A DNA stretch of 58,888 nt from Acetobacteraceae bacterium (GTDB lineage Bacteria > Pseudomonadota > Alphaproteobacteria > Acetobacterales > Acetobacteraceae): positions 1-58,888 of the forward strand of contig JASHOF010000108.1 of NCBI GenBank assembly GCA_030041255.1. Direction: 5' to 3'. Below, one piece after another: positions 42,272 to 58,888 of the stretch. Position numbers and translations under genes: made by a program. Every line of letters starts with the position of its first letter. Positions within the stretch are counted from its first letter, which is position 1. The notes beneath the pieces are model-generated. The model made no database searches. It saw only the letters and a program-made list of their open reading frames with translations, and had not been told where the DNA came from.

Positions 42272-43540
42272 ATGCGCATCACACGCCGCATTCTGCTGGC
42301 GGGAGCCGCCCCGTTCGGGCTCGGGGCGGCTCCCGTGCGGCCGCCCGCCCCGGTCCCCGGCCCGCCGCTCGTGTTGGGCGCCCTCTTCCCGCTCTCCGGC
42401 GAGGCCGCCCTGCTCGGCGATGAGGGATTCCGGGGCTTGGCCCTCGCTGTCGAGGCATTGAATGCTGCCGGCGGGCTCGGCCGGCGCAAGGTTGCTCTCA
42501 AGCGGTCGGACGCGCGCGATCCGTCGATCGCAGCCAGCGCTGCGAACACTCTGATCCAGAAGGAAAAGGTCGCAGCAATCTTCGGCACCGGCGCAACCCC
42601 GATGGCGCTTTCGGCCTCCGCCGCTTCCGCCCTCGCCGACATTCCCTATTTCGAGCTGACGGCAACCGGCGCCGCCGTGACTGGCCGCCGCTTGCCGGGT
42701 ATTTTCCGCTCCTGCCCCCAGGCCGACGCGCTCGGCGCCCTGGCGGTCTCGGCGCTCGCCGACGTTCTGGCGCCCCTCTGGCATCGCCCGGCCGCATCAA
42801 TCCGCGTCGCGGTGCTGGCCAGCAGCGACGAACACGGCCAAGCGGTCTCGGCGGCTCAGGTCGCTGCCTGCAAAAGCCGCCGCCTCGCGCTTGTGCAGAC
42901 GCTTGCCTACCCGACCGGAACGGTGGACTTCATGCCTCTGATCCGGGCCCTGAAGCTGGCGCGCATCGAAGTCGTGTTGCACACCGGATTCTCGAACGAC
43001 ATCGTGCTCTTCTACCGCAGCATGACCGAGGCGCACTGGCAACCGGGAATGGTGATCGGCAGCGGCCCCTCCTACCCCATGGCCGATACCCGCTCCGCCG
43101 TGGGCCCGGCGCTGGACGGCACACTGCTCGCCGACTTCCCTCCCTACGCGATCGATCCGCATGCCGCGCCCGGCGTGGCAGTGGTGGAAAGCGCCTATCA
43201 AAGACGCTACGGCGCCCAGCCGCGCTCGGGCGCGAGCCTGGCGGCCTATGTCGGCGCAGGGTTTTTCTTTGCCGCCATCGCCAAGGCGGGCGGCACCGAC
43301 CAGGTGAAGCTGCGCGCCGCAGTCCTGGCAAGCAATGTCGCGAACCAGACCACCGCCAACGGCTGGGGCGCCGATTTCGACGCCAGCGGGCAGAATCTCC
43401 GCGCCCGCCCCGTGCTGGCGCAATGGCAGAACGGGCGTGCCGTCACGGTCGCGCCAATCGAATTCGCAGTCGCGCTGACGGAACCGAGGCTCCGCGCGCT
43501 GCCGGCGCCCGCCTCTCCGCCGCCGAAAGAGGATCCGTGA
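42272..43540 (+). CDS. ABC-type branched-chain amino acid-like substrate-binding protein, Tat signal
   Basis: A 422-residue type I periplasmic binding protein. The N-terminus MRITRRILLAGAAPFGLG carries a twin arginine and a hydrophobic core. Mature signatures are LVLGALFPLSGEAALLGDEGFRGLALAVEALNAAGG, VAAIFGTGATPMALSASAAS, and ANGWGADFDASGQNLRARPVLAQWQNG, as in LivJ-type proteins. A GGGGGAAGG ribosome site lies about 3 bases before the ATG. No permease or ATPase gene is adjacent. It overlaps the hydantoinase B gene by GTGA, so it is coupled to catabolic enzymes rather than to a transporter. The ligand may be the hydantoinase/oxoprolinase substrate, which is inference. Confidence 0.88.
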   Translation: MRITRRILLAGAAPFGLGAAPVRPPAPVPGPPLVLGALFPLSGEAALLGDEGFRGLALAVEALNAAGGLGRRKVALKRSDARDPSIAASAANTLIQKEKVAAIFGTGATPMALSASAASALADIPYFELTATGAAVTGRRLPGIFRSCPQADALGALAVSALADVLAPLWHRPAASIRVAVLASSDEHGQAVSAAQVAACKSRRLALVQTLAYPTGTVDFMPLIRALKLARIEVVLHTGFSNDIVLFYRSMTEAHWQPGMVIGSGPSYPMADTRSAVGPALDGTLLADFPPYAIDPHAAPGVAVVESAYQRRYGAQPRSGASLAAYVGAGFFFAAIAKAGGTDQVKLRAAVLASNVANQTTANGWGADFDASGQNLRARPVLAQWQNGRAVTVAPIEFAVALTEPRLRALPAPASPPPKEDP

Positions 43541-45309
43541 CGGAACTCCGTCCCGACCGCGAATCCCCCGCTGCCGGCGCGATCGAGGAAGAGCTGTTCC
43601 GCGCTCAGCTTGCCGCCCTGGGCGATGAGATGGCGCTCACGATCTACCGCTCTTCCTATTCGGGAGTGCTCAAGAACATCATGGATTACAGCGCCGCTCT
43701 CTGCGACGCCGAAGGCCGGCTCGCCGCCCAGGGCCTCTCCGTGCCGGGGCATCTCTGCTCGATCCCGATCGCACTCGCGGCCGCACGGCGCGCCTACGAG
43801 GGCCGGATCCGGCCCGGCGATGTGCTGGCCATGAACGATCCTTACGAAGGCGGCATGCATCTGCCCGACATCTTCGTCTTCCGCCCGATCTTTGCCGCCG
43901 GCGAGCTGATCGCCTGGGCGGCGACGATCTGCCATCACACCGATGTCGGCGGCCGGGTTCCCGGCTCGAACGCCTCCGACAGTACCGAGATTTACGCCGA
44001 AGGGCTCCGCATCCCGCCGCTCAAGCTCTACCGCGAGGGCGTGGCGGACGAGAGCCTGTTCCGCATCATCGAAAAGAACGTGCGCCTGCCCGCCCGCGTG
44101 CTCGGCGATCTCCGCTCCCAGTTCGCCGCCTGCGAGATCGCCGAGCGCGGCATGACCGGGCTCATCGCGCGCCATGGAGCGATGTCGGTCAGGCGGCTGA
44201 TCGCCGCGACCATGGACTACAGCGAACGGCTGACGCGGCTCTCCCTCGCCGCCCTGCCCGACGGTGAAGCCTCCTTCACGGATTGGATCGATGACGACCA
44301 GATCGACACCGGAAGGCCGATCCCCCTCTGCTGCACGGTCCGCAAACAGGGCGAGCAGATGGAAATCGACTGGACGGGATCGAGCCCGCAGGTAAAAGGC
44401 GCCATCAACAACACCTGGTCCTATACCGCGGCGGCGAGCTTCACCGCCGTGAAGTCCGTGCTGGCAGCCGAGATGCCGAACAATGACGGCGTCTTCCGCG
44501 CCATCCGCGTCATCGCCCCGCCCGGGACGATCGCCAACGCATTGCCGCCGGCCGCCTGCGCGGCGCGCGGGCTCACCGGCTTCAGGATGCTCGATTGCTG
44601 CCTGGGCGCGCTCGCCGCCCTTTACCCCGACCGCGTGCCCGCCGCCTCCGAGGGCGGCAATACCGGCATCACCATCGGCGGCTACGACAGCGAGCGCCGG
44701 CCCTTCATCTATGTCGATTTCCTCTCCGGCTCCTGGGGCGGACGGCCCTGGGCGGACGGCCTCGAGGGCAACACCAACATGTTCGCCAACATGGCAAGCT
44801 TCCCGATCGAGGTCATCGAGGCCGATAACCCGCTCGAAGTGCTGGCCTGGCGGATCGTTCCGGACAGCGGCGGAGCCGGCCAGTACCGGGGCGGCATGGC
44901 ACTCGAACGCACCTGGCGCATGCTGGCCGAAGAGGGCATCCTGCAGGTGCGCTCGGACCGCGCGACGCACCGGCCCTACGGGCTGCAGGGCGGCGCGCCC
45001 GGCACCCCGAGCGAGAACCTGCTCGATCCGGGAACGGAACGGGAGCGCCGCCTTCCCGCCAAGCTCACCATCACCTTGCGCCAGGGCGAGGTGTTTCGCC
45101 ACCGCCTTGCCGGCGCCGGCGGCTGGGGCGATCCGCTGGCGCGGGAATTTTCCCAGATCGCACGGGATTTGGCCGCAGGGCTGCTCAGCGTCGAAGCCGC
45201 CGCGCGTGACTATGGCGTGATCGCTCGCGGCGATCCGCCAACGCTCGACCTGGCGGCCAGCGAAGCCTTGCGCCGGCGCCTCCGCGCCGCGCGGGGATTT
45301 GCGGCGTGA
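43537..45309 (+). CDS. Hydantoinase B / oxoprolinase beta-type subunit
   Basis: A 590-residue subunit of the ATP-dependent hydantoinase/5-oxoprolinase family (HyuB). Hallmarks are MALTIYRSSYSGVLKNIMDYSAALCDAEGRLAAQG near the N-terminus, AMNDPYEGGMHLPDIFVFRPIF, ATICHHTDVGGRVPGSNASDSTEIYAEGLRIPPLKLY, and SEGGNTGITIGGYD. The start is GTG at 43537, overlapping the binding-protein stop. It overlaps HyuA by GTGA, so the two subunits should be made in equal amounts. The exact ring substrate (hydantoin, oxoproline, caprolactam, acetophenone-type carboxylation) cannot be read from sequence; the family is functionally mixed. Confidence 0.94.
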   Translation: MTELRPDRESPAAGAIEEELFRAQLAALGDEMALTIYRSSYSGVLKNIMDYSAALCDAEGRLAAQGLSVPGHLCSIPIALAAARRAYEGRIRPGDVLAMNDPYEGGMHLPDIFVFRPIFAAGELIAWAATICHHTDVGGRVPGSNASDSTEIYAEGLRIPPLKLYREGVADESLFRIIEKNVRLPARVLGDLRSQFAACEIAERGMTGLIARHGAMSVRRLIAATMDYSERLTRLSLAALPDGEASFTDWIDDDQIDTGRPIPLCCTVRKQGEQMEIDWTGSSPQVKGAINNTWSYTAAASFTAVKSVLAAEMPNNDGVFRAIRVIAPPGTIANALPPAACAARGLTGFRMLDCCLGALAALYPDRVPAASEGGNTGITIGGYDSERRPFIYVDFLSGSWGGRPWADGLEGNTNMFANMASFPIEVIEADNPLEVLAWRIVPDSGGAGQYRGGMALERTWRMLAEEGILQVRSDRATHRPYGLQGGAPGTPSENLLDPGTERERRLPAKLTITLRQGEVFRHRLAGAGGWGDPLAREFSQIARDLAAGLLSVEAAARDYGVIARGDPPTLDLAASEALRRRLRAARGFAA

Positions 45310-47384
45310 GCCTTCGCATCGGCGTCGATATCGGCGGCACCTTCACCGACCTCATTTCGATCGACGCCACCGGAAGGATCGCGGTCGAAAAGATCGCCTC
45401 GACACGAGCCGACTACACGCTGGGAATCGTCGTCGGCCTCTCGCGGCTCCTCTCCCATGCCGGCGCCGTGGGAAAAGTTGCCGAGGTCCTGCACGCCAGC
45501 ACCATCGCATCGAACGCACTGCTCGAAGGCAAGGGCGCGAAGACCGCCCTGATCACGACCGCCGGATTCCGCGACGTGCTCGAGATCCGCGATCTCCGCA
45601 TGCCGCGGCTTTACGATTTCACCTGGACCAAGCCGCCGCCGCTGGTGCCGCGGCGGCTGAGATTCGAAGTCCTCGAGCGGATCCGCCCTGACGGCAGCAT
45701 TGCCCGCCCGCTCGACCAGGCGAGCCTCGCCGAGACGATCGCACGGCTCGGCGCCGACAGCGTCGAGAGTGTCGCCATCGCGCTCCTCAACAGCTACGCC
45801 AATCCGGCGCACGAACAGGCCGTCGCCGAGGCCGTCCATGCCGCCCTGCCTCACCTTGCGATCTCGGAAAGTGCCGCCATCCTGCGCGAGATCAAGGAAT
45901 ATCCCCGCACTTCGACCGCGGTGATCAACGCCTCTCTGCAGCCGCTCGTCGCCGATTATCTCGAACGGCTGGAGCGCAGCCTCCGCGAACTCGGAATCGC
46001 CACCCCGCTCCGGCTTCTGCAATCGAATGGCGGGTTGGCCACGCCCGCATTCGCCGCCCGCTTTCCCGCCCACATGGTCGAAAGCGGCCCCGCCGCCGGT
46101 GTGGTGGGCGCCGCTCAGCTTGCGCGCCGCCTCGGCGAGGCACGGCTGATCAGCTTCGACATGGGCGGCACCACCGCCAAGGCCGGCCTCGTCGAAGCCG
46201 GCGAAGTGCTGCGCGCGGAAGCCATGGAGGTCGGCGGCGGCGTGCTTTCCGGCGCCCGCCTCCTCAAGGGCGCCGGCTACCTCCTCAAGCTGCCTTCGAT
46301 CGATCTCGCCGAGGTGGGCGCCGGCGGCGGCTCGATCTGCCGGCTCGACGCCGCAGGCGCCCCGAAGGTCGGTCCCGAAAGCGCCGGCGCCGAGCCCGGG
46401 CCCGTCTGTTACGGCCGCGGCGGCACGCAGCCCACCATCACCGATTGCAACCTCGTGCTCGGCTATCTCGATGAGAAGGGGCTCGCGGGCGGCGCCGTGG
46501 CGCTCGACCGGGCCGCGGCGGCACGCTCGCTCGACGAAAGAATTGCCGCCCCGCTCGGGCTTTCCCTCGAGGCGGCGGCGCACGGCATGCTCCGCCTCGC
46601 CACCGCCGGCATGATGCGCGCCGTCCGCGCCGTGACGGTGGAGCGCGGCCGGGACCCGCGCGATTTCTCGCTGCTCGCCTTCGGCGGCAACGGGCCGCTC
46701 TTTGCCGCCTCGCTCGCCGCGGAACTCGGTATCGAACGCGTGCTGATCCCACCCCATCCCGGCCTCTTCTCGGCCTTCGGGCTCCTCGTTGCCGACACCG
46801 AATATCACCTCGCACGCACCGTGCGTGCCCGCCTCGATCGTTCCGCCGAAGTGGCGGCAACGCTCTCTACCGCGATGGCGGAACTCAGGGCCGAGGGCGC
46901 CGCCCGCCTCGCCGGAGAGGGCGTTCCGCCGGAACGCCACGAATTTCGCGCCGCCGCACTCGCCCGTTACGTCGGGCAATCGAGCGAGCTTTCGGTTCCC
47001 GTCGAGCGAGCTGACGGCATCGGCGCCGATATCGCCGAACGTTTCGCAGCCGAACATTACCGGACCTACGGCTTCGCCGCCCCGCCCGACGAGCCCGTCG
47101 AGGTGATCGGCCTGGCCCTGATCGCCCGTGCCGTGCCTCTCTCGCCGCGTCTTCCCGAACGCATGGCGCCCGCCGGCGGCGAGACCTTGCCCCGGCCAGG
47201 CCGCACCTGCTGGTTCCCGCCCCAGGGCTGGCTCGAAACCCCGGTGCTCGGGCGGGCCGCGCTCGGCCGCTCGGAACGCGCAGGCCCGCTGATCATTGCG
47301 GAATACGACGCCACCACCCTGGTGCCGCCCGGGGCCTCGGCAGCTTGCGACGATTTCGGCATGATCCGCATCCGGCTGCGCTGA
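45306..47384 (+). CDS. Hydantoinase A / oxoprolinase alpha-type subunit
   Basis: A 692-residue ATPase subunit of the same family (HyuA). It opens IGVDIGGTFTDLISID, the acetate/sugar-kinase-like phosphate motif, and contains HASTIASNALLEGKGAKTALITTAGFRDVLEI. ESGPAAGVVGAAQLARR, SFDMGGTTAKAGLVE, VGAGGGSICRLDAAGAPKVGPESAGAEPGPVCYGRGG and FGGNGPLFAASLAAELGIERVLIPPHPGLFSAFGLL are the following domain motifs. It starts with GTG overlapping the HyuB stop. The SDR gene follows across REP-like repeats, which may limit transcription into it. Confidence 0.95.
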   Translation: MSLRIGVDIGGTFTDLISIDATGRIAVEKIASTRADYTLGIVVGLSRLLSHAGAVGKVAEVLHASTIASNALLEGKGAKTALITTAGFRDVLEIRDLRMPRLYDFTWTKPPPLVPRRLRFEVLERIRPDGSIARPLDQASLAETIARLGADSVESVAIALLNSYANPAHEQAVAEAVHAALPHLAISESAAILREIKEYPRTSTAVINASLQPLVADYLERLERSLRELGIATPLRLLQSNGGLATPAFAARFPAHMVESGPAAGVVGAAQLARRLGEARLISFDMGGTTAKAGLVEAGEVLRAEAMEVGGGVLSGARLLKGAGYLLKLPSIDLAEVGAGGGSICRLDAAGAPKVGPESAGAEPGPVCYGRGGTQPTITDCNLVLGYLDEKGLAGGAVALDRAAAARSLDERIAAPLGLSLEAAAHGMLRLATAGMMRAVRAVTVERGRDPRDFSLLAFGGNGPLFAASLAAELGIERVLIPPHPGLFSAFGLLVADTEYHLARTVRARLDRSAEVAATLSTAMAELRAEGAARLAGEGVPPERHEFRAAALARYVGQSSELSVPVERADGIGADIAERFAAEHYRTYGFAAPPDEPVEVIGLALIARAVPLSPRLPERMAPAGGETLPRPGRTCWFPPQGWLETPVLGRAALGRSERAGPLIIAEYDATTLVPPGASAACDDFGMIRIRLR

Positions 47385-47406
47385 AGGGACAGATCCCTCC
47401 GGGAGC

Positions 47407-47510
47407 GGGGTCTCTTCTCTACTCCCCTCTCCCTCTGGGAGAGGGGTCTCTTCTTTACTCCCCTCTCCCTCTGGGAGAGGGGTCGGGGGTGAGGGCTGGG
47501 GGTGAGGGAA
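47407..47510. repeat. Tandem REP-like palindromes with GGGTGAGGG tail
   Basis: Two near-identical 36-base units (47407-47442 and 47443-47478, one mismatch at the C/T after CTT) each contain the palindrome CCCCTCTCCC-TCT-GGGAGAGGGG. After them comes GGGGTCGGGGGTGAGGGCTGG and a second GGGTGAGGG near 47500-47508. The elements sit between hyuA and the SDR gene. The final GTGAGGG is seven bases before the SDR ATG and doubles as its ribosome site. Confidence 0.8.
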
Positions 47511-49162: not shown

Positions 49163-51145
49163 TTACCTGACGAGGCTGAGCCCGAGAATGACCACGAGCA
49201 GAAACCCGATCAGACCGAGATAGAAATGAAGCCGGCCCGACTGCAGCGCTCGCAGCCATTCCGAAAGCGCACCCATCAGCCTGATCGTCGGAGCAAAAAG
49301 CCAGGGTCCGAACAGCGGCGCCACGTCATGGCTGAAGACCAGCCTCGTCACGAAATACTCGCGCCCCTCCGTCTCCCGCGTCGTCTCCGCAGTCGGGCGA
49401 TAGATGAAACTGTAGAAGGTGCGCAGCGCATTCGAGAAGGTGAGCGCCGTGGTCGCGGTGCGCGCCATCTCGGGCGCCGTGCCGCCATACCATACCGGCG
49501 CCCGGCGCACCTGCCGCCCTCTGTGCGATGCGACGAGAAGTCCGGCCGGAATGAGCGCCAGCAACGGCATGACGATCACGAGCAGGCTCGGCGAGATGAA
49601 GGCGAAGCTCGCCGTGAGCGGCACCAGGATCGGACCCGCATGCATCAGGGCCGGTGAAGCCGCGCCGAACAGGCCAAGCGCGGCAGCGGCCAGCACCCGG
49701 AGCCACACCGGCATGCCGACCGCAAGCGCCAGCACGAGTGCCCCGAGCACCGCCACCGCAGCGACGGTTCCCGTCCTCACCCTGCCCGGCACACGATTCC
49801 CGGCGCCGAGTATCCCGATGCCGAACAGCTTGACGAAGGTCGCGAAGGCAACCGCCGCGGTCAGCGCCAGTCCCGCACCGGCCAGCGCCAGCACCAGCCG
49901 CCCGCCCATGCCGGCAAGGTGGAAACCCTGGAAAAGCGTCTGAAACACGAACCATTCGCTGACGAAGCCCGCCTGCGGCGGCATCGCGGCGAGACTCATC
50001 ACCGCAAACAGCGCCCCCACCCCGAACACCAGGGCGGTGCGCCTGGCAAAGGCCGAATGGCGGATGTCATAGCCGCCGGTTGCCGCGAAGACGCCATCCG
50101 CGGTGAGGAAGAGCGTGCCTTTCGCCAGGGCATGGCCGGCAAGATGCAGAAGCGAAACGGTCCAGGCAAGCCCGGCCAGCGCGCCCAAGCCGTCCGCACG
50201 GAACATCAGGCTCGCGCCGAGCGTCGTCACCGCGATCGCCGCGTTCTCGGCCGATGAGAAGCCGAGAAGGCCACGCCAGTCATCCTGCTGGAAGGCGTAG
50301 AGTGTCGCCAGGATCGCGCTCAACACGCCGACGATGACAACGAAAATGCCGAGCCCGTACCCGCCGGGCGCCGGCAGCCACTCGATGAGGCCGCGCGCAA
50401 GCCCGAAATAGGCGGCATTGAGCACCACCCCCGAGAGGATCGCCCCGCTCGCCCCGCTGCCCGCGCCATAGGCTGCCGGAAACCATTCATAAAACGGCAG
50501 GAGCCCGAGCTTGGCACCAAAGCCGGCCACCAGCGCCACGCCGATGGCGGCGGCAAGCGTGCCCGCAATCAACCCGCCGGCATGCGCAAACCCGGCAAAG
50601 TCGAGGCTCCCGGAGTTGGTGGCAAGCCCGAGCAAGGCCAGCAGCAGCGCCACCGTCCCGACTTCCAGAAGCCCCAGCATGAACAGCACCGGCTCACCCG
50701 GAGCGAGCGCGGCCTGCTCCCAGAGAATCATCACGGCGCCGCCGAGGCTCATCACTTCCCAGGCGATCAGGAACCCGCCGGCATTCTGCAACCCGAACAC
50801 GCCGAGTGCACCCAGGAGGCTCGCCGCGGCGCCGAACAGCCAGCCTCCGCGTCCCGCCACCACTGGCGAGGCGAGCCAGGTCGCACAAGCGGCCGGAGCA
50901 AGCCCGAACCCCATCAGCCACAGTGCCGCCGGGGAAATCCGGAACCCGAACCTTTCCCCCGCCATGCTGAGCGGAAGCGTGACCTCGGCGGTGCCGCCGG
51001 GCAGCGCCATGATCGCCGCCACGATCGCCGCGACAGCGCCAAGCCCCAGCGCCGCACGCACCAACCCGAGCGCGCGCCCGGTCAGCGCCAGCGCACCGCC
51101 CGCTGCCCAGAGAATGGCCGCCAGTGCCAGCAGTTCATTCGCCAT
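49163..51145 (-). CDS. Hydrogenase-4 subunit B-like proton-translocating membrane subunit (HyfB/NuoL-like)
   Basis: A 660-residue antiporter-like membrane protein with about 14-16 hydrophobic helices. Recognisable are GLLPFYEWFPAAYGAGSGASGAILSGVVLNAAYFGLARGL, LYAFQQDDWRGLLGFSSAENAAIAV and LHLAGHALAKGTLFLTADGVFAATG. These include the Glu/Lys/His residues of the proton path (SSAEN, GHALAKGTLF). The C-terminal amphipathic part ends REYFVTRLVFSHDVAP. It is the last gene of the complex and overlaps the ferredoxin-small-subunit gene by 11 bases. It would supply ion pumping to the complex. Confidence 0.9.
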   Translation of the reverse strand: MANELLALAAILWAAGGALALTGRALGLVRAALGLGAVAAIVAAIMALPGGTAEVTLPLSMAGERFGFRISPAALWLMGFGLAPAACATWLASPVVAGRGGWLFGAAASLLGALGVFGLQNAGGFLIAWEVMSLGGAVMILWEQAALAPGEPVLFMLGLLEVGTVALLLALLGLATNSGSLDFAGFAHAGGLIAGTLAAAIGVALVAGFGAKLGLLPFYEWFPAAYGAGSGASGAILSGVVLNAAYFGLARGLIEWLPAPGGYGLGIFVVIVGVLSAILATLYAFQQDDWRGLLGFSSAENAAIAVTTLGASLMFRADGLGALAGLAWTVSLLHLAGHALAKGTLFLTADGVFAATGGYDIRHSAFARRTALVFGVGALFAVMSLAAMPPQAGFVSEWFVFQTLFQGFHLAGMGGRLVLALAGAGLALTAAVAFATFVKLFGIGILGAGNRVPGRVRTGTVAAVAVLGALVLALAVGMPVWLRVLAAAALGLFGAASPALMHAGPILVPLTASFAFISPSLLVIVMPLLALIPAGLLVASHRGRQVRRAPVWYGGTAPEMARTATTALTFSNALRTFYSFIYRPTAETTRETEGREYFVTRLVFSHDVAPLFGPWLFAPTIRLMGALSEWLRALQSGRLHFYLGLIGFLLVVILGLSLVR

Positions 51146-51929
51146 GACGGTCTCTCGCCATGCGCTCGGGCATCCGCCCCTGGAGCGCGAGCAACGCCAT
51201 GATGATCGCCGACGGATTGGGCGGGCAGCCGGGCAGGTAGAGATCGATCGGCAACACGCCCTCGAGCCCGCTCCCGCAGGCGTAACCGCCCCTGGCAATT
51301 CCGCCCGAGACCGCGCACGTGCCGGCGGCCATCACGAAACGCGGCTCGGGCATCGCCTCCCAGGTCGCGCGGAGCGGCGCGAGCATCGCGTGCGTGACCG
51401 TCCCCGTCACCAGCAAGAGATCGGCGAAGCGCGGCGAGGCGGTGAAGAAGATGCCGAGCCGATGCAGATTGTAGAAGGGATTGTTGAGCGCCTGCAGTTC
51501 CGATTCGCAGCCGTTGCACGAGCCCGCATCCACGTGGCGGATATGCAGGCTGCGGCGAAAAGCGCGCGGTACCGCACCATCCTTGCGTGCCGGTTGCGCG
51601 GTCGGGGACCACAGCAGATCTTCGCGCCGGCGCACCCCGAAGGCCCAGTCTTGCGACGGGCTCAGCGCGCCGCTCGGACAGGCCTCCGTGCAGAGCTGGC
51701 AGACGACGCAGCTTCCATAATCCAGCGTAATCCCGCCCGGCGCTCCGGGCGCGACCGCGATCGCCCCGCTCGGGCAGACCGCCGCACATTCGCTGCATCC
51801 GGCCTCGCAGAGTTCGGGGGCGTAGCGCGGCATTCCCAGCACGCCTTGCTGGCCGTCTTCGCTGCCGCGACCCGGCCACGCCGTGGTCGCCTTGCCCTCG
51901 GAAAGCCCGAACCATGTCCAGAACGCCAT
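51135..51929 (-). CDS. Fused ferredoxin-small subunit (HyfH/HyfI-like, NuoB-type)
   Basis: A 264-residue fusion of an N-terminal two-[4Fe-4S] ferredoxin domain and a NuoB/HyfI-type small subunit. Ferredoxin cysteines are CEAGCSECAAVCP (41, 45, 48, 52; first spacing one longer than usual) and CVVCQLCTEACP (74, 77, 80, 84). The small-subunit N2-like cluster is CNGCES (138, 141), GTCAVSGG (205) and PGCPP (235). In E. coli Hyf/Hyc, HyfH and HyfI are separate proteins. All cluster ligands are kept, so electron entry from a reduced ferredoxin-like donor is possible. It lies between the large subunit and the HyfB-like gene. Confidence 0.88.
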   Translation of the reverse strand: MAFWTWFGLSEGKATTAWPGRGSEDGQQGVLGMPRYAPELCEAGCSECAAVCPSGAIAVAPGAPGGITLDYGSCVVCQLCTEACPSGALSPSQDWAFGVRRREDLLWSPTAQPARKDGAVPRAFRRSLHIRHVDAGSCNGCESELQALNNPFYNLHRLGIFFTASPRFADLLLVTGTVTHAMLAPLRATWEAMPEPRFVMAAGTCAVSGGIARGGYACGSGLEGVLPIDLYLPGCPPNPSAIIMALLALQGRMPERMARDRHGE

Positions 51930-51940
51930 CGCCGCCTGCC

Positions 51941-53422
51941 CTACCGCGCGCAGCCGGCGATCGTGAGGCCGAAGCTCGCCTCGTTGATGGCGTAGTCCAT
52001 CATGTTCGTCTCGTGCACCGTGAAGGGGAAAACCCGCCAGTTCGAGAACGACGGCGATTTGATCTTCACCCGCTTGAGGTGTCCATCGGCCCCGAAATGA
52101 ACGGCATAGAAAAGTGTCCCGCGCGGTGATTCGGCCCAGCCGAGACCTTCCGCCCCGGGCACCGCCGACAGGGCTTCATGCACCGTGCCTTCCTCGAGCT
52201 TCATCAGCACCCGCTCGATGAGGGCGAAGGATGCCTCGATCTCGGCCGCCCGCACCAGCGCTCGGGCATAGGCATCGCCCTCCTCGCGCACCGCTACCGT
52301 GAGCGGCAACTCGGCATAGGCGGCATAAGGATGATCGCGGCGCAGATCGCGATCGATGCCGGAGGCGCGCTGCACCGGCCCGGTCGCGCCTTGATCGAGC
52401 GCAACCGGCCGCGAAAGCCGCCCCGTGGTGATCAGCCGGTCGCGATGGCTGTCGGAGTGCTCCAGGAGATCGACGAAGCGCGCCGCCTCCGCCCTGAGCC
52501 CCACGAGCGCGTCGGCAAGCCAGCGTTCGGGCGCCAGGTCGCGCCGGAGCCCGCCCGGCGTGATGATGCCGCGCAGGAAGCGGCTGCCGGTCAACCGCGC
52601 ATTGAGCTGCTTGACACGCTCTTCGAGCAGCTTGCCCTGGGCCTCGGCCACCTTGAGCGTGGTCGTGCTGGCGAGATGGCCGAGATAATGCAGGTGGTTG
52701 TAAAGCCGTTCCAGTTCCGCAAGGAGCGCGCGCAGGTAGAGCGCGCGCCGCGGCACCTCGCAGGAGAGCGCCGCCTCGATCGCCTGGCAGTAGGCCAGCA
52801 CGTGCGCCACGCTGCCGACGCCGGAAACCCGCTCGGCCATCACCGCGCCTGCCGTGGGCGTGAGCCCGGCGAAGCGCTGCTCCATGCCGCGATGCTTGAA
52901 GAAAAGATGCGGATGATAGTGGAGAATCCGCTCCCCGACATAGAAAAAAGTGAACTCGGCGGATTCCAGCACGTCCGCGCGCACCGGACCGAACGGCAGC
53001 AGTTGCACATCCGGCTGATCCAGCTCGGGAAGCCCGCGCGGCACATCCGCTCCGCGCCGTTCCACCCCCTCCGCCGCGCCGCGCGCCGCCCGGAACGGCG
53101 GCGCGATATCGTCGCCAAGGATCAGCCGGTTCGGCTCGGGATGGTCGCGGAAGCCAAGACCGAACAGGTCCATGACCTCCCGCTCGTACCACCCCATCGC
53201 GGGCCAGATCGCAGCCAGGCTCGGTGCCTCCCCATCCGGCCGGCAGCGCCACATCAGGAACCTTCTGCTCTCGGCCGGCGAGGCCAGATAGCGGAGCTCG
53301 GCCACACCCTCTTCCGGCTGCCAGGCATAGACCATCTGCATGCGTCCGCCGGTGGCGAACAGCGCGCGCGCAATCTCCGGCATGTCCTCGCCCGCGACCG
53401 TGGCGCCCTCGGTGCCCTTCAT
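51941..53422 (-). CDS. Hydrogenase-4-type large subunit (HyfG/NuoCD-like) without NiFe-binding cysteines
   Basis: A 493-residue NuoC-NuoD-type protein. The NuoC part ends WYEREVMDLFGLGFRDHPEP. The NuoD/hydrogenase part has HYHPHLFFKHRGME and YNHLHYLGHLASTTTLKVAEA, then GATGPVQRASGIDRDLRRDHPYAAY, a group-4 hydrogenase and complex I hallmark. In group 4 hydrogenases ERVCGICS and a C-terminal CxxC carry the nickel-iron ligands. Here the first is ERVSGVGS (Ser200, Gly203) and the end reads FGLTIAGCAR, so neither CxxC motif exists. The start ATG 53422 overlaps the HyfF-like stop (ATGA); a frame to 53557 is shadow. It is therefore not a normal hydrogenase, but probably an Ehr-type subunit. Confidence 0.9.
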   Translation of the reverse strand: MKGTEGATVAGEDMPEIARALFATGGRMQMVYAWQPEEGVAELRYLASPAESRRFLMWRCRPDGEAPSLAAIWPAMGWYEREVMDLFGLGFRDHPEPNRLILGDDIAPPFRAARGAAEGVERRGADVPRGLPELDQPDVQLLPFGPVRADVLESAEFTFFYVGERILHYHPHLFFKHRGMEQRFAGLTPTAGAVMAERVSGVGSVAHVLAYCQAIEAALSCEVPRRALYLRALLAELERLYNHLHYLGHLASTTTLKVAEAQGKLLEERVKQLNARLTGSRFLRGIITPGGLRRDLAPERWLADALVGLRAEAARFVDLLEHSDSHRDRLITTGRLSRPVALDQGATGPVQRASGIDRDLRRDHPYAAYAELPLTVAVREEGDAYARALVRAAEIEASFALIERVLMKLEEGTVHEALSAVPGAEGLGWAESPRGTLFYAVHFGADGHLKRVKIKSPSFSNWRVFPFTVHETNMMDYAINEASFGLTIAGCAR

Positions 53423-54897
53423 CGCAACGCCACCTCTGCGGGACCAGGGACGAGCCCGTGCGCGATGACCCCGAAATAATGCCAGATCGCCTCCGGCCAC
53501 CAGAGCCCGAGCACGAGCACGGGAATGAAAGCCAGCCACATCGGCGCCGCGCACCACGCACTCACCCTTCCTTGCGGTGCCGTCTCCGATTCCGGCGCCA
53601 CGAAATACATGATGCGGAAATGATTGAGAAAGCCGATGAAGATGACGATCAGCAGGATCGCCATCAGGATCGCCGCCCAGGCATTTATCCCGCTGAGCCC
53701 CGCGCGCAGGATCGTCAGTTCGGATGCGAACAGGCCGAACGGCGGCGCGCCGGTGATGGCAACCGCCCCGGCAAGCCAGAGCCCGCCCACCACCGGAAAA
53801 TACCGGCCCACTCTGCGGATCAGGGTGATCTCCTTGGTCCCGAATGTCCGCATCATGCTGCCGGCGCCGAAGAACATCAGGGACTTGTTCAGCGTGTGGT
53901 TCAGCATGTGATAGAGCGCACCGGCCACGCCGAACGGGCCGCCGAACCCGAAGCCGAGCGCCATCACCCCCATGTGCTCGACGCTCGAATAGGCCATCAG
54001 CCGCTTGATGCCGCTCTGGCGGACAATGAACAATGCAGCGATGAACAGTGAGAAGGCGCCGAGCACCACCAGCACCGCGCGCGGCAGTGGCCCGGCATGC
54101 GCCGCCTCGGCGATCGAGAGATAGCGTATGACCCCGATCATCGCCGCATTCAGCAGCGCACCGGACAGCAGTGCCGAGACCGGCGCCGGCCCCTCGCTAT
54201 GCGCATCCGGCAGCCAGGTGTGCATCGGCGCCAGCCCCACCTTGGTGCCGTAGCCGACCAGCACCAGCAGGAACGCCAGCGCGATCAGGGTCGGGTTCAT
54301 ATGCGGCGCGGCGGCACCGAGAACCGCCCAGGTCATCGCATAGCTCGGGCCGAGCACGAACGTCCCGGCCCAGTAGAATAGAACGGTGCCGAACAGCGCC
54401 AGGCTGATCCCGCCGGAGACGACGATGATGTATTTCCAGGCCGCCTCGATGCTTTCCGGCGCCCGCTCGAACGCAACCAGGAAGGTGCTGACCAGCGTCG
54501 TCAGCTCGATCGCGATCCAGTAGAGCCCCGCGTTGTTCATCATCGGGGCGACCATGGTGGTCAGGCCGAATCCCGCGAACAGCGCATAGAAGCGCGCCAG
54601 TCGTGCCTCCTCGTCGAGCATGCGCATGTAGCCGATGCCGTAGATCGAGGCCAGGAAATAGACGATCGCCGCGCACAGGATGACCCAGGCGCCGAACGGA
54701 TCGGCAATCACGTACTGATCGAGGAAGACATGCGCCCCGCCCAGGCTCGCCCCGGGAAGCAGCAGCGCCGCACCAAAAGAGACCGCGCTTGCCGCCAGGT
54801 TGAGCCGCTCTGCCAGGCGCGGGCGCCGGGTGAGCAGAATGACCACGATCGCCGCCACCGGGGCAAGCACGATCAGGAGCAGCAGCACGCCCGCCAT
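53419..54897 (-). CDS. Hydrogenase-4 subunit F-like proton-translocating subunit (HyfF/NuoN-like)
   Basis: A 492-residue polytopic membrane protein with about 13 helices. It carries the antiporter-like motif GYGTKVGLAPMHTWLPDAHSEGPAPVSALLSGALLNAAMIGVIRY, KRLMAYSSVEHMGVMALGFGFGG, and ALYHMLNHTLNKSLMFFGAGSMMRTFGT. It also has the early NNAGLYWIAIELTTLVSTFLV segment, all typical of HyfF/NuoN-type. It overlaps the large-subunit start by ATGA and follows the HyfE-like gene by 3 bases. With HyfB-like it gives the complex two antiporter-like pumping modules. Confidence 0.92.
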   Translation of the reverse strand: MAGVLLLLIVLAPVAAIVVILLTRRPRLAERLNLAASAVSFGAALLLPGASLGGAHVFLDQYVIADPFGAWVILCAAIVYFLASIYGIGYMRMLDEEARLARFYALFAGFGLTTMVAPMMNNAGLYWIAIELTTLVSTFLVAFERAPESIEAAWKYIIVVSGGISLALFGTVLFYWAGTFVLGPSYAMTWAVLGAAAPHMNPTLIALAFLLVLVGYGTKVGLAPMHTWLPDAHSEGPAPVSALLSGALLNAAMIGVIRYLSIAEAAHAGPLPRAVLVVLGAFSLFIAALFIVRQSGIKRLMAYSSVEHMGVMALGFGFGGPFGVAGALYHMLNHTLNKSLMFFGAGSMMRTFGTKEITLIRRVGRYFPVVGGLWLAGAVAITGAPPFGLFASELTILRAGLSGINAWAAILMAILLIVIFIGFLNHFRIMYFVAPESETAPQGRVSAWCAAPMWLAFIPVLVLGLWWPEAIWHYFGVIAHGLVPGPAEVALR

Positions 54898-54900
54898 GGC

Positions 54901-55581
54901 TCAGCCCACCAGCCGGTTGAGCGAGAGCGCGCTGGTGCTGCCGACATGGCTCGACAGATAGCGCACCAGGATGCCGAAGCAGACGACGACGATCAGGAGG
55001 TCGAACAGGATGACGATCTCGATCAGAAGCGGCATCCCGGGAACCAGGATCTGCGCCCCGAGGAAGATGCCGTTCTCCAGCACCAGGAGGCCCAGCACCT
55101 GGCTCACCGCCTCATGGCGCACCGTCAGCATCAGAAAGCCGATCAGCTTCAGCGACAGCATCACCGTCAGCGCCAGCACGGCAACCGTCCCGGCAAGCCC
55201 GAGACCGACGCTGAGATGGCTGGCGACGACAAGCGCGAAGATGACGGCGAAGGCGCCGGCGACGAGCGAGGAGCTGGGTTGAAGACCCACATCCACTTCG
55301 CGGGCGACGTCGAGGGGACGGACGATGCGGAGAATGAGATAGGGCAGGATGCAGCCGCGGAAGAGCACCGTGAGGACTGCAATGACATAGAGTTCGGGAA
55401 AGCCTCCGTAGAAGCCGACCGCCGCCGAAAGCACGGCAATCAGCCAGGATTCTGCGGCAAAGGCATAGATGTAGTGACGCAACCAGCGCGAGCCGAGCAT
55501 CACGAAGGCAAGCAGCAGGCTCGCTATCGCGATCAGGCTGAACAGCGAAGCGGCGAGTGGGGGAAAGGTCGTGACGATCAC
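54901..55581 (-). CDS. Hydrogenase-4 component E-like membrane protein (HyfE/NuoK-like)
   Basis: A 226-residue protein with about six hydrophobic segments, matching HyfE. It has SLLLAFVMLGSRWLRHYIYAFAAESWLIAVLSAAVGFYGGFPELYVIAVLTVLFRGCILPYLILRIVRPL, and the NuoK-like tail RHEAVSQVLGLLVLENGIFLGAQIL with the buried glutamate of the ion path. The start is GTG at 55581; no in-frame ATG is close. It lies 5 bases downstream of the HyfC-like gene. Confidence 0.88.
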   Translation of the reverse strand: MIVTTFPPLAASLFSLIAIASLLLAFVMLGSRWLRHYIYAFAAESWLIAVLSAAVGFYGGFPELYVIAVLTVLFRGCILPYLILRIVRPLDVAREVDVGLQPSSSLVAGAFAVIFALVVASHLSVGLGLAGTVAVLALTVMLSLKLIGFLMLTVRHEAVSQVLGLLVLENGIFLGAQILVPGMPLLIEIVILFDLLIVVVCFGILVRYLSSHVGSTSALSLNRLVG

Positions 55582-55585
55582 GGCA

Positions 55586-56530
55586 TCAGCCCAACTGGGT
55601 GCCGATGATCGAGAGCACCGCCAGCAGGAACGAGGCGGCGAGCGGTTCCTGGTAGCGATAGAAGCGGAGCCTCGACTGCGTCGTGTCCACGACGACGACA
55701 GCCAGGGCGACCAGCGTGAACTTTGCCATCAGCGCCACCGCCGCGCCGAGCGCCCCCGGTGCCGTGCCGCGGATGGAAAGCGCCCAGGGAAGCAGCAGCA
55801 CGTTGCAGAAGATCGTATAGAGGATGAACTGCTTCATCATCGAGGCCCAGCGCACCAGCGCCAGCAGCGGGCCGGAATATTCCAGGATCCGCGCCTCCTC
55901 GATCATGTAGACCTCGATATGGGTCGGCGAATGGATCGGCAGCCGGTCGGTCTCGACCAGCAGCAGGATGAAGAAGGCGGCGACCAGGAACAGATGCGCC
56001 GGGTTCCAGTACACCGCCGGCTCCGCCACCAGGAGGTGGTTCACCACGAACGGCAGCATCGATTTGGCGAGCAGCGTGATGCCGACGAAGACCAGGATCA
56101 GCGTCGGCTCGGCGAGAATCGTCACCATCGCCACGCGCGAGGAGCCGATACCGCCATAGGCGCTGCCGCTGTCGAGCCCCGCGAGCGTGATCATGAAGCC
56201 GCCCAGCGTCAGGATCAGCCCGCCACCCAGGATATCGCCCATGTCCGACAGCGGCAGCGGGAAGTTGGTCAGCACCGGAATGAGGATCGGCACCGTCAGC
56301 ATGGCCGTAAAGGCGACGATCGGCGCCATCCAGAACAGCCAGGACGCCGTCTCCGGCACCACGATCTGCTTGCTGAACAGTTTGCGGAGATCGCGGTAGG
56401 GCTGGAAGATGCCCGGCCCCCGGGCGCGCTGTACCCGCTCCTCGAACTGCACGATGATCCCTTGCAGCAGCGGCGCCAGCACCAGCACCGCCACCACCTG
56501 GGCGATCTGCAGCAGGATGTCGCGGGTCAT
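55586..56530 (-). CDS. Hydrogenase-4 subunit C-like membrane anchor (HyfC/NuoH-like)
   Basis: A 314-residue membrane protein with eight or so hydrophobic segments, the NuoH homologue. The hallmarks are VQFEERVQRARGPGIFQPYRDLRKLFSKQIV and the loop LVETDRLPIHSPTHIEVYMIEEARILEYSGPLLALVRWASMMKQFI, which contacts the large subunit near the quinone/active-site interface. The ATG at 56530 has a GAGG ribosome site 4-5 bases ahead; the frame to 56557 adds nine unlikely residues. It is the first gene of the complex, so its promoter should lie in 56531-56806. Confidence 0.93.
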   Translation of the reverse strand: MTRDILLQIAQVVAVLVLAPLLQGIIVQFEERVQRARGPGIFQPYRDLRKLFSKQIVVPETASWLFWMAPIVAFTAMLTVPILIPVLTNFPLPLSDMGDILGGGLILTLGGFMITLAGLDSGSAYGGIGSSRVAMVTILAEPTLILVFVGITLLAKSMLPFVVNHLLVAEPAVYWNPAHLFLVAAFFILLLVETDRLPIHSPTHIEVYMIEEARILEYSGPLLALVRWASMMKQFILYTIFCNVLLLPWALSIRGTAPGALGAAVALMAKFTLVALAVVVVDTTQSRLRFYRYQEPLAASFLLAVLSIIGTQLG

Positions 56531-56792
56531 GCGTCCTCGCCGCGCAAAGCTGCGCAAACCATCATCCGCACCTGGAACTCCCCCTTCATCCGATCCGATC
56601 TAGGGAGGAGTCATCAGCCCCCAGGAAATCACCTCGGGACGGTCAAGGGCGAACTCCATCGCCGCAACGGGTTGGCGCATAAAGCGGGCTTCGTCGATCC
56701 TGTCAAGCCGCCCCATGCCGCGACATCAGGCAGTACCGGGGTGCGCTTATCGAGGGCGGCAGGACCGCGGCGCTCTCTGTTATCGCCGCCCG

Positions 56793-56816
56793 GGTCACAT
56801 GAGCGGTCACATGAGC
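56793..56816. repeat. 12-base tandem duplication across the selD stop codon
   Basis: GGTCACATGAGC is repeated exactly, at 56793-56804 and 56805-56816. On the minus strand the right-hand copy contains the terminal Met codon and the TGA of selD, and the left-hand copy lies downstream. It shows a local duplication; any function is unknown. Confidence 0.7.
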
Positions 56817-58888
56817 CTGAGCAGCGGCGCTCCTTCGCTCGCCGGGAAAACCTCGCCGATGGCGGCGGCAATCAGCCCCGCCGCGGCCAGATCCGAAAGC
56901 AAATCCCTGCTCGCCTCGGCACCGACGCCCGCCAGCAGCCCGCCGGAAGTCTCTGGATCGACGAGCAGCGCAACCGCCCGATGAGCCAGTGGCGGCCCAC
57001 CGAGCGCCGTTTCCAGCACCGCACGGTTCGCCGGCGCAAGCGAGCTCTCGATTCCGCTCTCCGCAAGCTGAAGCGCGCCGGAAAGGGCCGGAATCGCCGC
57101 CAGGTCGAGCCGGGCGGCAACGTTCGATGCGCGCACCATCTCGATCAGGTGCCCGGCCAGCCCGAAGCCCGTCACATCGGTCACGGCACGAATGCCGTAG
57201 CAGCGAAAGACAGCGGCCGCGGCGGCATTGCTCTGCCGCATCACTCCGATTGCGGCGCCGAGATCCGCCGCGCCAAGCCGCCCGCGCGCCAGCGCCGCCA
57301 GCAGGATGCCGACACCGAGCGGCTTGGTCAGCACCAGCCGATCCCCGGCCCGAAGCGCCGATTTGCTGAAGAGCGCCCCCGGCTCGGCAAGCCCGGTGAC
57401 AGAAAAGCCAAGCCCAAGCTCGGCCGCTTCCCCCGAATGCCCCCCGGTCAGAACAGAGCCCGCCGCCGACAGAGCCCGCGCCGCTCCTGCCATCAGGACA
57501 GCGAGCTCTTCGGCCATCTTCGCCCCGCGCATGTACGGCACGCCGGCAATCGCCAGCGCCGTCCACGGCTCGGCACCCATCGCGTAGAGATCCGAAAGCG
57601 CGTGCACCGCGGCGATCTCGCCGAACAGAAACGGGTCGTCGATAAACGCGCGCAGGTAATCGACGCTCTGCACAAGCACCAGGCCCGGCGGCGGCGCGCT
57701 CACCGCGGCATCCTCGGCCGCGGCAAGCCCGGCCAGGATGTCCGGGCGGGCCGGCTCTGCAAGCGGCGCCAGCGCCTCGACCAGCGCGTCGGCTCCGAGC
57801 TTCCCCCCGCACCCGGCGCAGCGCATCGGTTCTTCCGCTGCCATCGCTCCCATCGCGCCGGGCGCGTACATCGCCATCCAGCGCGCGTCGATGCGCTCCT
57901 TCCAGCGCGCCACCCAACGGCCCGACAAACAGAAGCGCGCGCCGCGCCAGGCAAGCGCGCGGCCCTCGCCGAGCCCAAGTATCGCCAGCGCCTCGCGCTG
58001 CGGGCGCCAGGATCTCAGCTTCCTTCCCGCCGCCGCCGCGCGCAGATTCTCCGCCAGCACCGGCCCCGCCCGCACCGCGAAAACGCCTGCCCTGGGCCGC
58101 GGAAATCCCTCCATCGCGGCACAATCTCCGGCCGCAAAAACGTGCGCATGGCTCAGGCTTTCGAGCGTCGGCGCAACCTTGACGAAACCCGCCTCGTCGC
58201 ACGCCAGCCCGGCATCGGCAAGGAATGGCGGGCCGACCACGGCAGTGGCCCAGATCGCCGCATCGGCCGCCACCGTCTCTCCATCGCCGAGACCAACAAC
58301 GCCACAGGAAAAACCCGTCGCGGGAACTCCGAGGGCGAGGCTGACGCCGGCGCGGGCAAGCGCAACGCGGGCAATGCGGCGCGCCCCAGGCGGAGCATCG
58401 AAAAGAATCTCGGGACGGTCGGATACGAGCACGAGCGCAAAACGGCCGGCAAAGCGGCGTGCCAGCGCGAGGGCAAGCTCCACACCCCCTGCCCCGCCGC
58501 CCACCACCGCAATCCGTCCGCCGCGGGAAAGCCCGGACTCGATTTCCGCAAGCCGGGCCAGGAATCGGCTGATCGGCTTGACCGCAATCGCGCCCTCGGG
58601 CGCCGATGGCGCCGCTCCGACATCGATCGAAAGAAGATCGAACGAGAGGGAAGCGCGCTCCGCGAACAGCACGCGGCGCGATGCGAGATCGAGGCCCTCC
58701 GCCTCGGCCATGATCAGCCTTGCGCGCGACCTCGCCGCCAGCCGGGCAAGGTCGATATGCGCCTCTGCCGGGAAAATCTCCCCGCGGATGACCGCCGGCA
58801 GGAGGCCGGAATACGGGGTGAGCGGCTCGCGCGCCACCAGAGTGACACGCAGGCCAGGAACCGGGCGCTGCCCGAGCCGCCGCAGCAC
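56807..58888 (-). CDS. selD: FAD/NAD oxidoreductase-selenide, water dikinase fusion, 5' end cut by window
   Basis: A fusion of two proteins, 693 residues visible. Residues 1 to about 340 are a pyridine-nucleotide disulfide/NDH-2-like flavoprotein (NAD motif VVGGGAGGVELALALARRF, FAD motif HVFAAGDCAAME). The rest is selenophosphate synthetase, which makes selenophosphate for selenoproteins or selenouridine tRNA from selenide and ATP. The SelD part opens MRCAGCGGKLGADAL (Cys357/Cys360, Lys363 aligned to E. coli Cys17/Lys20), then SVDYLRAFIDDPFLFGEIAAVHALSDLYAMGA, LTGGHSGEAAELGLG and VTDVTGFGLAGHLIEM. The first residues seen start inside the Rossmann domain (about 10-15 N-terminal residues missing), so the gene runs off the right end. 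No tRNA-Sec is visible nearby. Confidence 0.93.
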   Translation of the reverse strand: MLRRLGQRPVPGLRVTLVAREPLTPYSGLLPAVIRGEIFPAEAHIDLARLAARSRARLIMAEAEGLDLASRRVLFAERASLSFDLLSIDVGAAPSAPEGAIAVKPISRFLARLAEIESGLSRGGRIAVVGGGAGGVELALALARRFAGRFALVLVSDRPEILFDAPPGARRIARVALARAGVSLALGVPATGFSCGVVGLGDGETVAADAAIWATAVVGPPFLADAGLACDEAGFVKVAPTLESLSHAHVFAAGDCAAMEGFPRPRAGVFAVRAGPVLAENLRAAAAGRKLRSWRPQREALAILGLGEGRALAWRGARFCLSGRWVARWKERIDARWMAMYAPGAMGAMAAEEPMRCAGCGGKLGADALVEALAPLAEPARPDILAGLAAAEDAAVSAPPPGLVLVQSVDYLRAFIDDPFLFGEIAAVHALSDLYAMGAEPWTALAIAGVPYMRGAKMAEELAVLMAGAARALSAAGSVLTGGHSGEAAELGLGFSVTGLAEPGALFSKSALRAGDRLVLTKPLGVGILLAALARGRLGAADLGAAIGVMRQSNAAAAAVFRCYGIRAVTDVTGFGLAGHLIEMVRASNVAARLDLAAIPALSGALQLAESGIESSLAPANRAVLETALGGPPLAHRAVALLVDPETSGGLLAGVGAEASRDLLSDLAAAGLIAAAIGEVFPASEGAPLLRLM

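Follow-up and report, generated by a model that had tools for sequence, protein, structure and literature searches.

The window analysed here, a 58,888-nucleotide stretch of an Acetobacteraceae genome (contig JASHOF010000108.1), contains an operon for a hydrogenase-like membrane complex that lacks a nickel–iron (NiFe) site and lies behind a fluoride riboswitch. Six genes run head to tail on the minus strand, from position 56530 to 49163, in the order hyfC-hyfE-hyfF-hyfG-hyfHI-hyfB, as identified from open reading frames (ORFs) and their Pfam and NCBIfam matches. The first encodes a NuoH-like membrane subunit of 314 amino acids (hyfC-like, 55586..56530; PF00146, E 1.6e-34) and is followed by a hyfE-like gene for a membrane subunit of 226 amino acids (54901..55581), for which no Pfam match was found and whose NCBIfam match is weak (NF008556, hydrogenase 4 membrane subunit; 46 bits, cut-off 136). 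Behind these lie a hyfF-like antiporter-type pump subunit of 492 amino acids (53419..54897; PF00361, E 2.2e-49), the hyfG-like large subunit of NuoC-NuoD type, 493 amino acids long and without NiFe ligands (51941..53422; PF00346, PF00329), and a hyfH-hyfI fusion of 264 amino acids (51135..51929) that joins two [4Fe-4S] ferredoxin motifs to a NuoB-like small subunit (PF01058, E 1.4e-28, plus Fer4 matches). The last gene encodes a second antiporter-type pump subunit (hyfB-like, 49163..51145; PF00361, E 7.4e-25), which scores 274.8 bits against NF005086 (hydrogenase 4 subunit B), below the cut-off of 667. The NADH module (NuoE, F, G) is absent from this six-gene operon.

The complex is intact as far as sequence can tell. 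The 12 cysteines of the fusion subunit, enough for three [4Fe-4S] clusters, are all present and are invariant in 51 of 51 aligned rows; K155, K219, K298, K338, and E393 of HyfF are invariant in 47 rows, as are E131, K213, K343, and E398 of HyfB in 47–48 rows (HyfB residue numbering begins one earlier, at GTG). Compared with the sister genome G069, the six operon genes show ratios of nonsynonymous to synonymous substitution (dN/dS) of 0.04–0.30. Both the subunit architecture and the retention of the Fe–S cysteines and the two antiporter-like pumps had been proposed in the original prediction, and both hold, with the reservation that the HyfE match is weak; its suggestion that activity may have been lost is contradicted by the purifying selection and by the invariant Fe–S and pump residues.

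Upstream, within the 276-nt gap that separates hyfC from a gene for a SelD fusion protein, lies a fluoride riboswitch aptamer (crcB motif, RF01734; 56598..56672, minus strand; Rfam 38.9 bits, gathering score 34, E 2.7e-7). It stands 67 bases before the hyfC start, is recovered at the same place by a whole-genome search and by our own model R1 (72.6 bits; R1 was built partly from the window sequence), and was absent from the original prediction. The 3' strand of the aptamer pseudoknot, as read from the sequence (GACTCCTCC, 56604..56612, minus strand), can alternatively pair with a purine-rich, Shine–Dalgarno-like stretch (GGGGGAGTT, 56576..56584, minus strand) that is a candidate expression platform; the pairing may point to translational control. 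The alternative stem comprises 9 bp and is present also in the minimum-energy fold, and the fold energy of the window leader is unremarkable (z −0.98). Such downstream pairing of the aptamer 3' strand is available in 26 of 54 leaders, the window included. Covariation among ten leaders provides a thin test, with both sides changing in 2 of 13 pairs. An intrinsic terminator as the platform is not general, as a T-rich tail follows the alternative stem in only 5 of 54 leaders. Of 21 out-of-frame ORFs in 28 leaders, 13 have a stop that overlaps the start of hyfC, but 19 of 42 non-hyfC frames do likewise, and we make no claim for such a small leader ORF.

The position of the aptamer is a constant feature of related operons. 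Relatives were drawn from 299 genomes belonging to the order, from named genomes (80 loci), and from three plasmids out of 195 plasmid records with a match; many of the loci come from metagenome bins. We call a locus window-type if its large subunit is at least 50% identical to that of the window, and second-type if its large subunit is 35–41% identical, hyfB being last in the second type also. With the window counted in, the distinct window-type loci number 64; the hyfC leader can be read in 56 of them, and the aptamer is found in 56 of 56: in 46 by R1, in the window and seven others by Rfam, in L052 by Rfam, and in L086 by Rfam alone, R1 having missed it. The 46 exclude one duplicate and L080, and include L066 and L079, which are themselves R1 building sequences. 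In the first loci put to Rfam, the aptamer lies directly upstream of hyfC in nine of nine. Six R1 cases, mostly weak, were rechecked with Rfam, which confirmed all but L078; leader matches near the R1 limit depend on position as much as on score. The leader is not readable in L067 (the same as L045), L076, L080, L087, L090, L099, L109, and L115. Second-type complexes carry the aptamer in seven of eight readable leaders, and in L058, L120, L141, and before the second hyfC of L080 it exceeds the Rfam cut-off. The riboswitch is retained across Alpha-, Beta-, and Gammaproteobacteria, Acidithiobacillus, and Acidobacteriota. Sampling began from the window sequence, and of at least 563 relatives in named genomes the best 80 were kept, so true NiFe-bearing enzymes controlled by fluoride may exist elsewhere.

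Relatives in which HyfB comes first provide the comparison. R1 finds no aptamer in 24 such loci (443 kb), against 127 matches in 56 window-type rows totalling 975 kb (one contig being counted twice). Because R1 can miss an aptamer, the HyfB-first loci were rechecked with Rfam: 20 of the 24 yielded none, and the whole genomes of the other four yielded no match. Every fluoride-linked large subunit falls in one clade of 59 rows (Shimodaira–Hasegawa-like approximate likelihood ratio test support 100), with no HyfB-first row inside. This tree is unrooted, was built by a quick method from 87 rows, and omits L053, L113, L136, L079, L078, L090, and L096; in its labels, L086 stood as a locus with no aptamer seen. 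NiFe-less relatives from Nitrospira and Methanoperedens adjoin the clade in this tree, which was drawn without the published EhrL references (Geobacter and Mbx), and Escherichia coli HycE and HyfG branch apart from it. Co-occurrence at the level of genomes is less telling. RF01734 is present in 137 of 299 genomes of the order, in 11 of 11 with the window-type complex vs. 126 of 288 others; because it is so common, the position of the aptamer is what counts. Ten hand-picked control genomes, of which two had RF01734, overstate the contrast relative to the 137 of 299 obtained from a wider draw with stricter filters. On positional grounds, the evidence linking riboswitch and complex is strong.

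The large subunit itself has been refitted. Aligned with E. coli HycE and HyfG, the four ligand-cysteine positions of the window HyfG are Ser200, Gly203, Thr487, and Gly490, as expected from the original prediction that both NiFe CxxC motifs are replaced; the single Cys of AGCAR stands one column away from a ligand position. A sequencing error at these sites is unlikely, since the sister genome, 96% identical, has the same replacements and since dN/dS is 0.04–0.30. All 54 window-type rows lack the ligands (for the C-terminal pair, 53 rows), as do all eight second-type rows, so that no fluoride-clade row of 62 has a Cys at a ligand position (one row lacks the C-terminus), whereas E. coli HycE and HyfG and L127, L131, and L143 have all four. 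L053, L113, L136, and L079 were left out of this residue comparison because they are partial or come from the same genome as another row. The His of the GPxH motif is replaced by Arg in 53 of 54 window-type rows (Arg148 in the window) and by Phe or Tyr in eight of eight second-type rows, and is kept in 22 of 22 other NiFe-less rows (21 HyfB-first and L123), in three NiFe-bearing rows, and in three E. coli references. The position of the complex I Tyr is occupied by Tyr in none of 54 rows, by Leu in 43, and by Met195 in the window. We take the Tyr and the GPxH His positions to be the quinone-headgroup sites of the 49-kDa subunit of complex I. Arg148, Lys257, and Lys271 are near invariant in the clade (53, 52, and 52 of 54) and rare outside it; the two lysines, together with H245, Y246, and several positions in the C-terminal NMMDYAINEASFG stretch, are clade-specific and near invariant. 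By sequence, the best match among solved structures is E. coli HycE (E 8e-51), and the predicted fold (predicted local distance difference test score 87.6) is closest to HycE in 7z0s_E (Z 45.0, root-mean-square deviation 2.7, 480 residues aligned), followed by complex I large subunits, some of them solved with quinone bound.

These features make the operon one of the type of the Ehr (energy-converting hydrogenase-related) complexes, which likewise combine a large subunit of the group-4 hydrogenase/NuoD family lacking the two CxxC motifs with Mrp/antiporter-like membrane subunits and a NuoB-like small subunit in a complex I architecture. This Ehr-type reading, a pump with electron input and no NiFe site, had been offered in the original prediction and is now supported by residues, tree, and fold; its suggestion of quinone coupling is weakened for chemistry of the complex I type by the lack of Tyr in 54 rows and the change of the GPxH His to Arg in 53 of them. 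The window clade differs from the Ehr complexes of Nitrospira, Margulisbacteria, and Geobacter in its terminal HyfB, its HyfH-HyfI fusion, its His-to-Arg replacement, and its fluoride riboswitch; in Nitrospira, Methanoperedens, and other HyfB-first relatives, no riboswitch was found in the stretches searched. The subunit set and fold are shared with E. coli hydrogenase-4/formate hydrogenlyase (HyfG, HycE; 7z0s), but the window operon lacks the NiFe ligands, HyfA, HyfD, HyfJ, and a separate HyfH. It likewise shares the electron-transfer and pump cores of complex I (NuoB, C, D, H, I, L, M, N, K), but lacks NuoE, F, G, A, and J and has the quinone Tyr and His positions replaced.

The neighborhoods of the relatives also point toward fluoride. 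Of 63 window-type loci, 30 have a fluoride exporter gene (crcB in 24, CLC in 6) on the strand of hyfB and within 450 bases downstream of it; the window is not counted, and 7 of the 63 end too early or lack hyfB. By the same test, no exporter was found behind the last gene in 24 HyfB-first loci or in eight second-type loci, of which L120 and L133 stop short of the region downstream of hyfB. Genes for enolase (eno), pyrophosphatase (ppa), mutS, dynamin, and DUF190 proteins recur around window-type loci, and none of these was found around HyfB-first loci. One genome of the same genus, G239, holds three copies of the window-type operon, on contigs C45, C102, and C166 (L043–L045), with a crcB match, short in the case of L044, behind each copy. 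At L080 (468-6605), a window-type operon is immediately followed by a second-type hyfC-hyfE with a riboswitch of its own (Rfam 43.7 bits); this aptamer belongs to the second complex, and L080 was not counted as a window-type positive.

The host genome offers further context. A search for hypD (PF01924) and hypC (PF01455), which did not extend to hypA, B, E, and F, found neither gene in it; E. coli and three further control genomes gave matches. To this extent, the absence of hyp genes noted for the window in the original prediction extends to the genome. The accompanying point about formate dehydrogenase fared less evenly: there is none in the operon, but the genome does have one on another contig, which also carries a second complex with 39% identity whose large subunit lies about 4 kb downstream of the dehydrogenase. 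When this formate dehydrogenase was used as a tblastn query, matches among the Ehr loci searched lay only beside the second-type L041 and L058/L136, and none of this kind was found in the stretches around window-type loci. A formate dehydrogenase as general partner of the complex is not supported, as it was found only beside the second-type complex of this genus. The second complex of the host (contig C135, L041, 2556-15153) is preceded by a NuoE-NuoF fusion and the formate dehydrogenase, and a fluoride riboswitch scoring below threshold (31.1 bits) stands between the dehydrogenase and hyfC; the matching large subunit of G239 has a 55.7-bit aptamer about 3.7 kb upstream of it. A separate NuoB of complex I type is encoded on contig C133.

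At E ≤ 0.001, RF01734 matches the host genome at seven places, five of them over the cut-off, the weakest being the 31.1-bit match on C135. Besides those of the window and of C135, the other five adjoin genes for MutS-like, dynamin-like, NUDIX, HEAT-repeat, and MoxR/DUF4129 proteins. Two of these neighborhoods (L153 and L154, on contigs C20 and C161) place riboswitches by dynamin-like GTPases, MutS domain V, NUDIX hydrolase, HEAT-repeat, and MoxR/DUF58/DUF4129 genes and have the appearance of a wide fluoride regulon, with no exporter seen in it. CrcB was not found by Pfam in the window's genome or in the sister genome, and is present in 19 of 19 other genomes compared; the remaining carriers searched have crcB, frequently right behind hyfB; both of these genomes nevertheless have seven fluoride riboswitch matches each. 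Three CLC genes are present in the host genome, none of them on a contig with a riboswitch match. At the place where a Burkholderia CLC has GREGT, two of the three have GKEGP or GAEGP, letters that we take to separate chloride from fluoride CLCs.

Other features of the window touch the operon less directly. The gene upstream of the riboswitch (56807-58888, minus strand) encodes a pyridine nucleotide-disulphide oxidoreductase that carries a fused SelD-like domain (TIGR03169, above the cut-off at 314.5 bits; TIGR04369 below its cut-off). At 47390-47490, two near-identical CT-rich palindromic repeats (ctcccctctccctctgggagagggg) precede a short-chain dehydrogenase gene. A hydantoinase/oxoprolinase B and A pair on the plus strand (43423-47384) stands beside the operon elsewhere only in the sister genome, among 19 loci.

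We propose, with a probability of about 0.6, that the complex is an Ehr-type ion pump, driven by redox chemistry and induced by fluoride. We infer the following course of events from the riboswitch, the gene set, and the retained clusters and pump residues. Rising fluoride would turn on hyfC-E-F-G-HI-B through the riboswitch leader; a soluble low-potential donor, either ferredoxin or a dehydrogenase, would pass electrons into the ferredoxin domain, from which they would reach the NuoB-like cluster, the NuoD-like subunit, and an acceptor; and the energy released would drive H+ (or Na+) outward through HyfB and HyfF. Protons carried in by hydrogen fluoride (HF) would thereby be removed, and the gradient used by CrcB and CLC exporters rebuilt. 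Such pumping probably restores pH and proton-motive force when HF enters, and so aids survival. By name, several carriers belong to groups known from acid habitats, such as Acidithiobacillus, Acidiphilium, Rhodopila, and Acidobacteriaceae; this would fit HF entry at low pH, but we do not count it as evidence. According to passages of a 2024 review, HF entry is correlated with acidification of the cytosol, fluoride export depends on the proton-motive force, and genes for Na+/H+ antiporters come next in frequency among those associated with the riboswitch (PMC11139923).

Several observations weigh against this proposal. The alternative-stem platform is visible in fewer than half of the leaders (26 of 54), and the aptamer of L078 is recognized by our own model only and not by Rfam. 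In the second type the evidence is weaker: L041 falls below the Rfam cut-off, L133 and L135 are recovered by R1 only, and L139 has no aptamer. No exporter adjoins the operon in 33 of 63 loci (7 of those unreadable), nor does one stand beside the window's own operon. The abundance of RF01734 in the order (137 of 299 genomes) means that co-occurrence within a genome says little. A redox pump, moreover, requires both a donor and an acceptor, and the donors named here are putative.

Alternative roles would make different use of the same parts. The complex could be a fluoride-induced quinone reductase, in effect a short complex I that feeds extra electrons into the respiratory chain and pumps likewise; the electron path to the NuoB-like cluster is intact, and complex I large subunits, some quinone-bound, are the closest structures after HycE, but both headgroup positions are lost (Tyr in 0 of 54 rows; His to Arg in 53 of 54, and to Phe or Tyr in all eight of the second type), which leaves this reading unlikely. 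It is less probable still that the complex itself exports fluoride or HF, powered by electron transfer. Such a primary fluoride pump would be the first exporter of its type, in which the former catalytic and quinone cavity, with its conserved positive residues, and the HyfB/HyfF channels move fluoride and replace CrcB in the window's species. The near-invariant Arg148, Lys257, and Lys271, rare outside the clade, are consistent with this, as are the lack of a CrcB match in the window's and sister genomes vs. 19 of 19 others and the location of the three CLC genes on contigs with no riboswitch match. However, an exporter gene adjoins the operon in about half of the relatives, one of the three CLC genes may be of the fluoride type, and the ions known to be handled by antiporter-like subunits with this fold are H+ and Na+.

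A still slimmer chance attaches to reverse operation, in which proton-motive force would be spent on producing low-potential reductant for repair during fluoride stress. Related complexes are reversible, and the ferredoxin-type input domain is kept; but fluoride stress already drains the proton-motive force (PMC11139923, in the passages cited), and spending more of it is therefore unlikely to be useful. That the complex is a genuine formate hydrogenlyase, serving fermentation or detoxification under fluoride, is scarcely credible, despite the use of this name in fluoride reviews and introductions and the formate dehydrogenase beside the second complex in this genus: a NiFe ligand occurs in 0 of 62 fluoride-clade rows, and no such formate dehydrogenase was found around window-type loci. 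A real hydrogenase is ruled out by the replacement of all four ligand positions in the window, together with the failure to find hypD and hypC. We likewise reject the view that the operon is a functionless relic in decay. Its catalytic metal site has indeed been lost, but the low dN/dS, the invariant cysteines and pump residues, and the retention of the riboswitch across several phyla and classes reduce the probability of decay to almost nothing. The NuoB- and NuoD-like subunits of the operon also speak against a plain Mrp system.

The association itself has been glimpsed before under another name. Weinberg 2010 recorded crcB RNAs upstream of 'formate hydrogen lyase' genes (PMC2864571), and cited passages of later papers repeat the association (PMC11139923, PMC8752731, PMC8004769); the 2024 review places it among the commonest, beside a shift to fermentation (PMC11139923), and 'formate hydrogen lyase' is elsewhere counted among detoxifying genes (PMC8752731). 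These passages contain no mention of the missing NiFe site or of an Ehr identity. In the Ehr literature, conversely, the relevant passages describe the NiFe-binding motifs as missing and the function as unproven (PMC6349859, PMC10284858), and the role of the Geobacter Ehr as never investigated (PMC7894505); PMC6315756, in the part cited, names a CrcB in a table only. Within the open-licence PubMed Central literature, as far as its passages were covered, we found no paper joining Ehr complexes to fluoride and no description of a fluoride-controlled clade of Ehr type.

For the fluoride-linked clade described here, the name 'formate hydrogen lyase' is wrong, as judged from its residues, and the fermentation reading does not follow from the label, since the clade lacks any nickel–iron ligand. 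The present analysis corrects that label for this clade. Ehr complexes are described as widespread and of unproven function; a clade wired to a fluoride switch, with exporter genes often next to it, offers a defined physiological context for testing the role of Ehr complexes.

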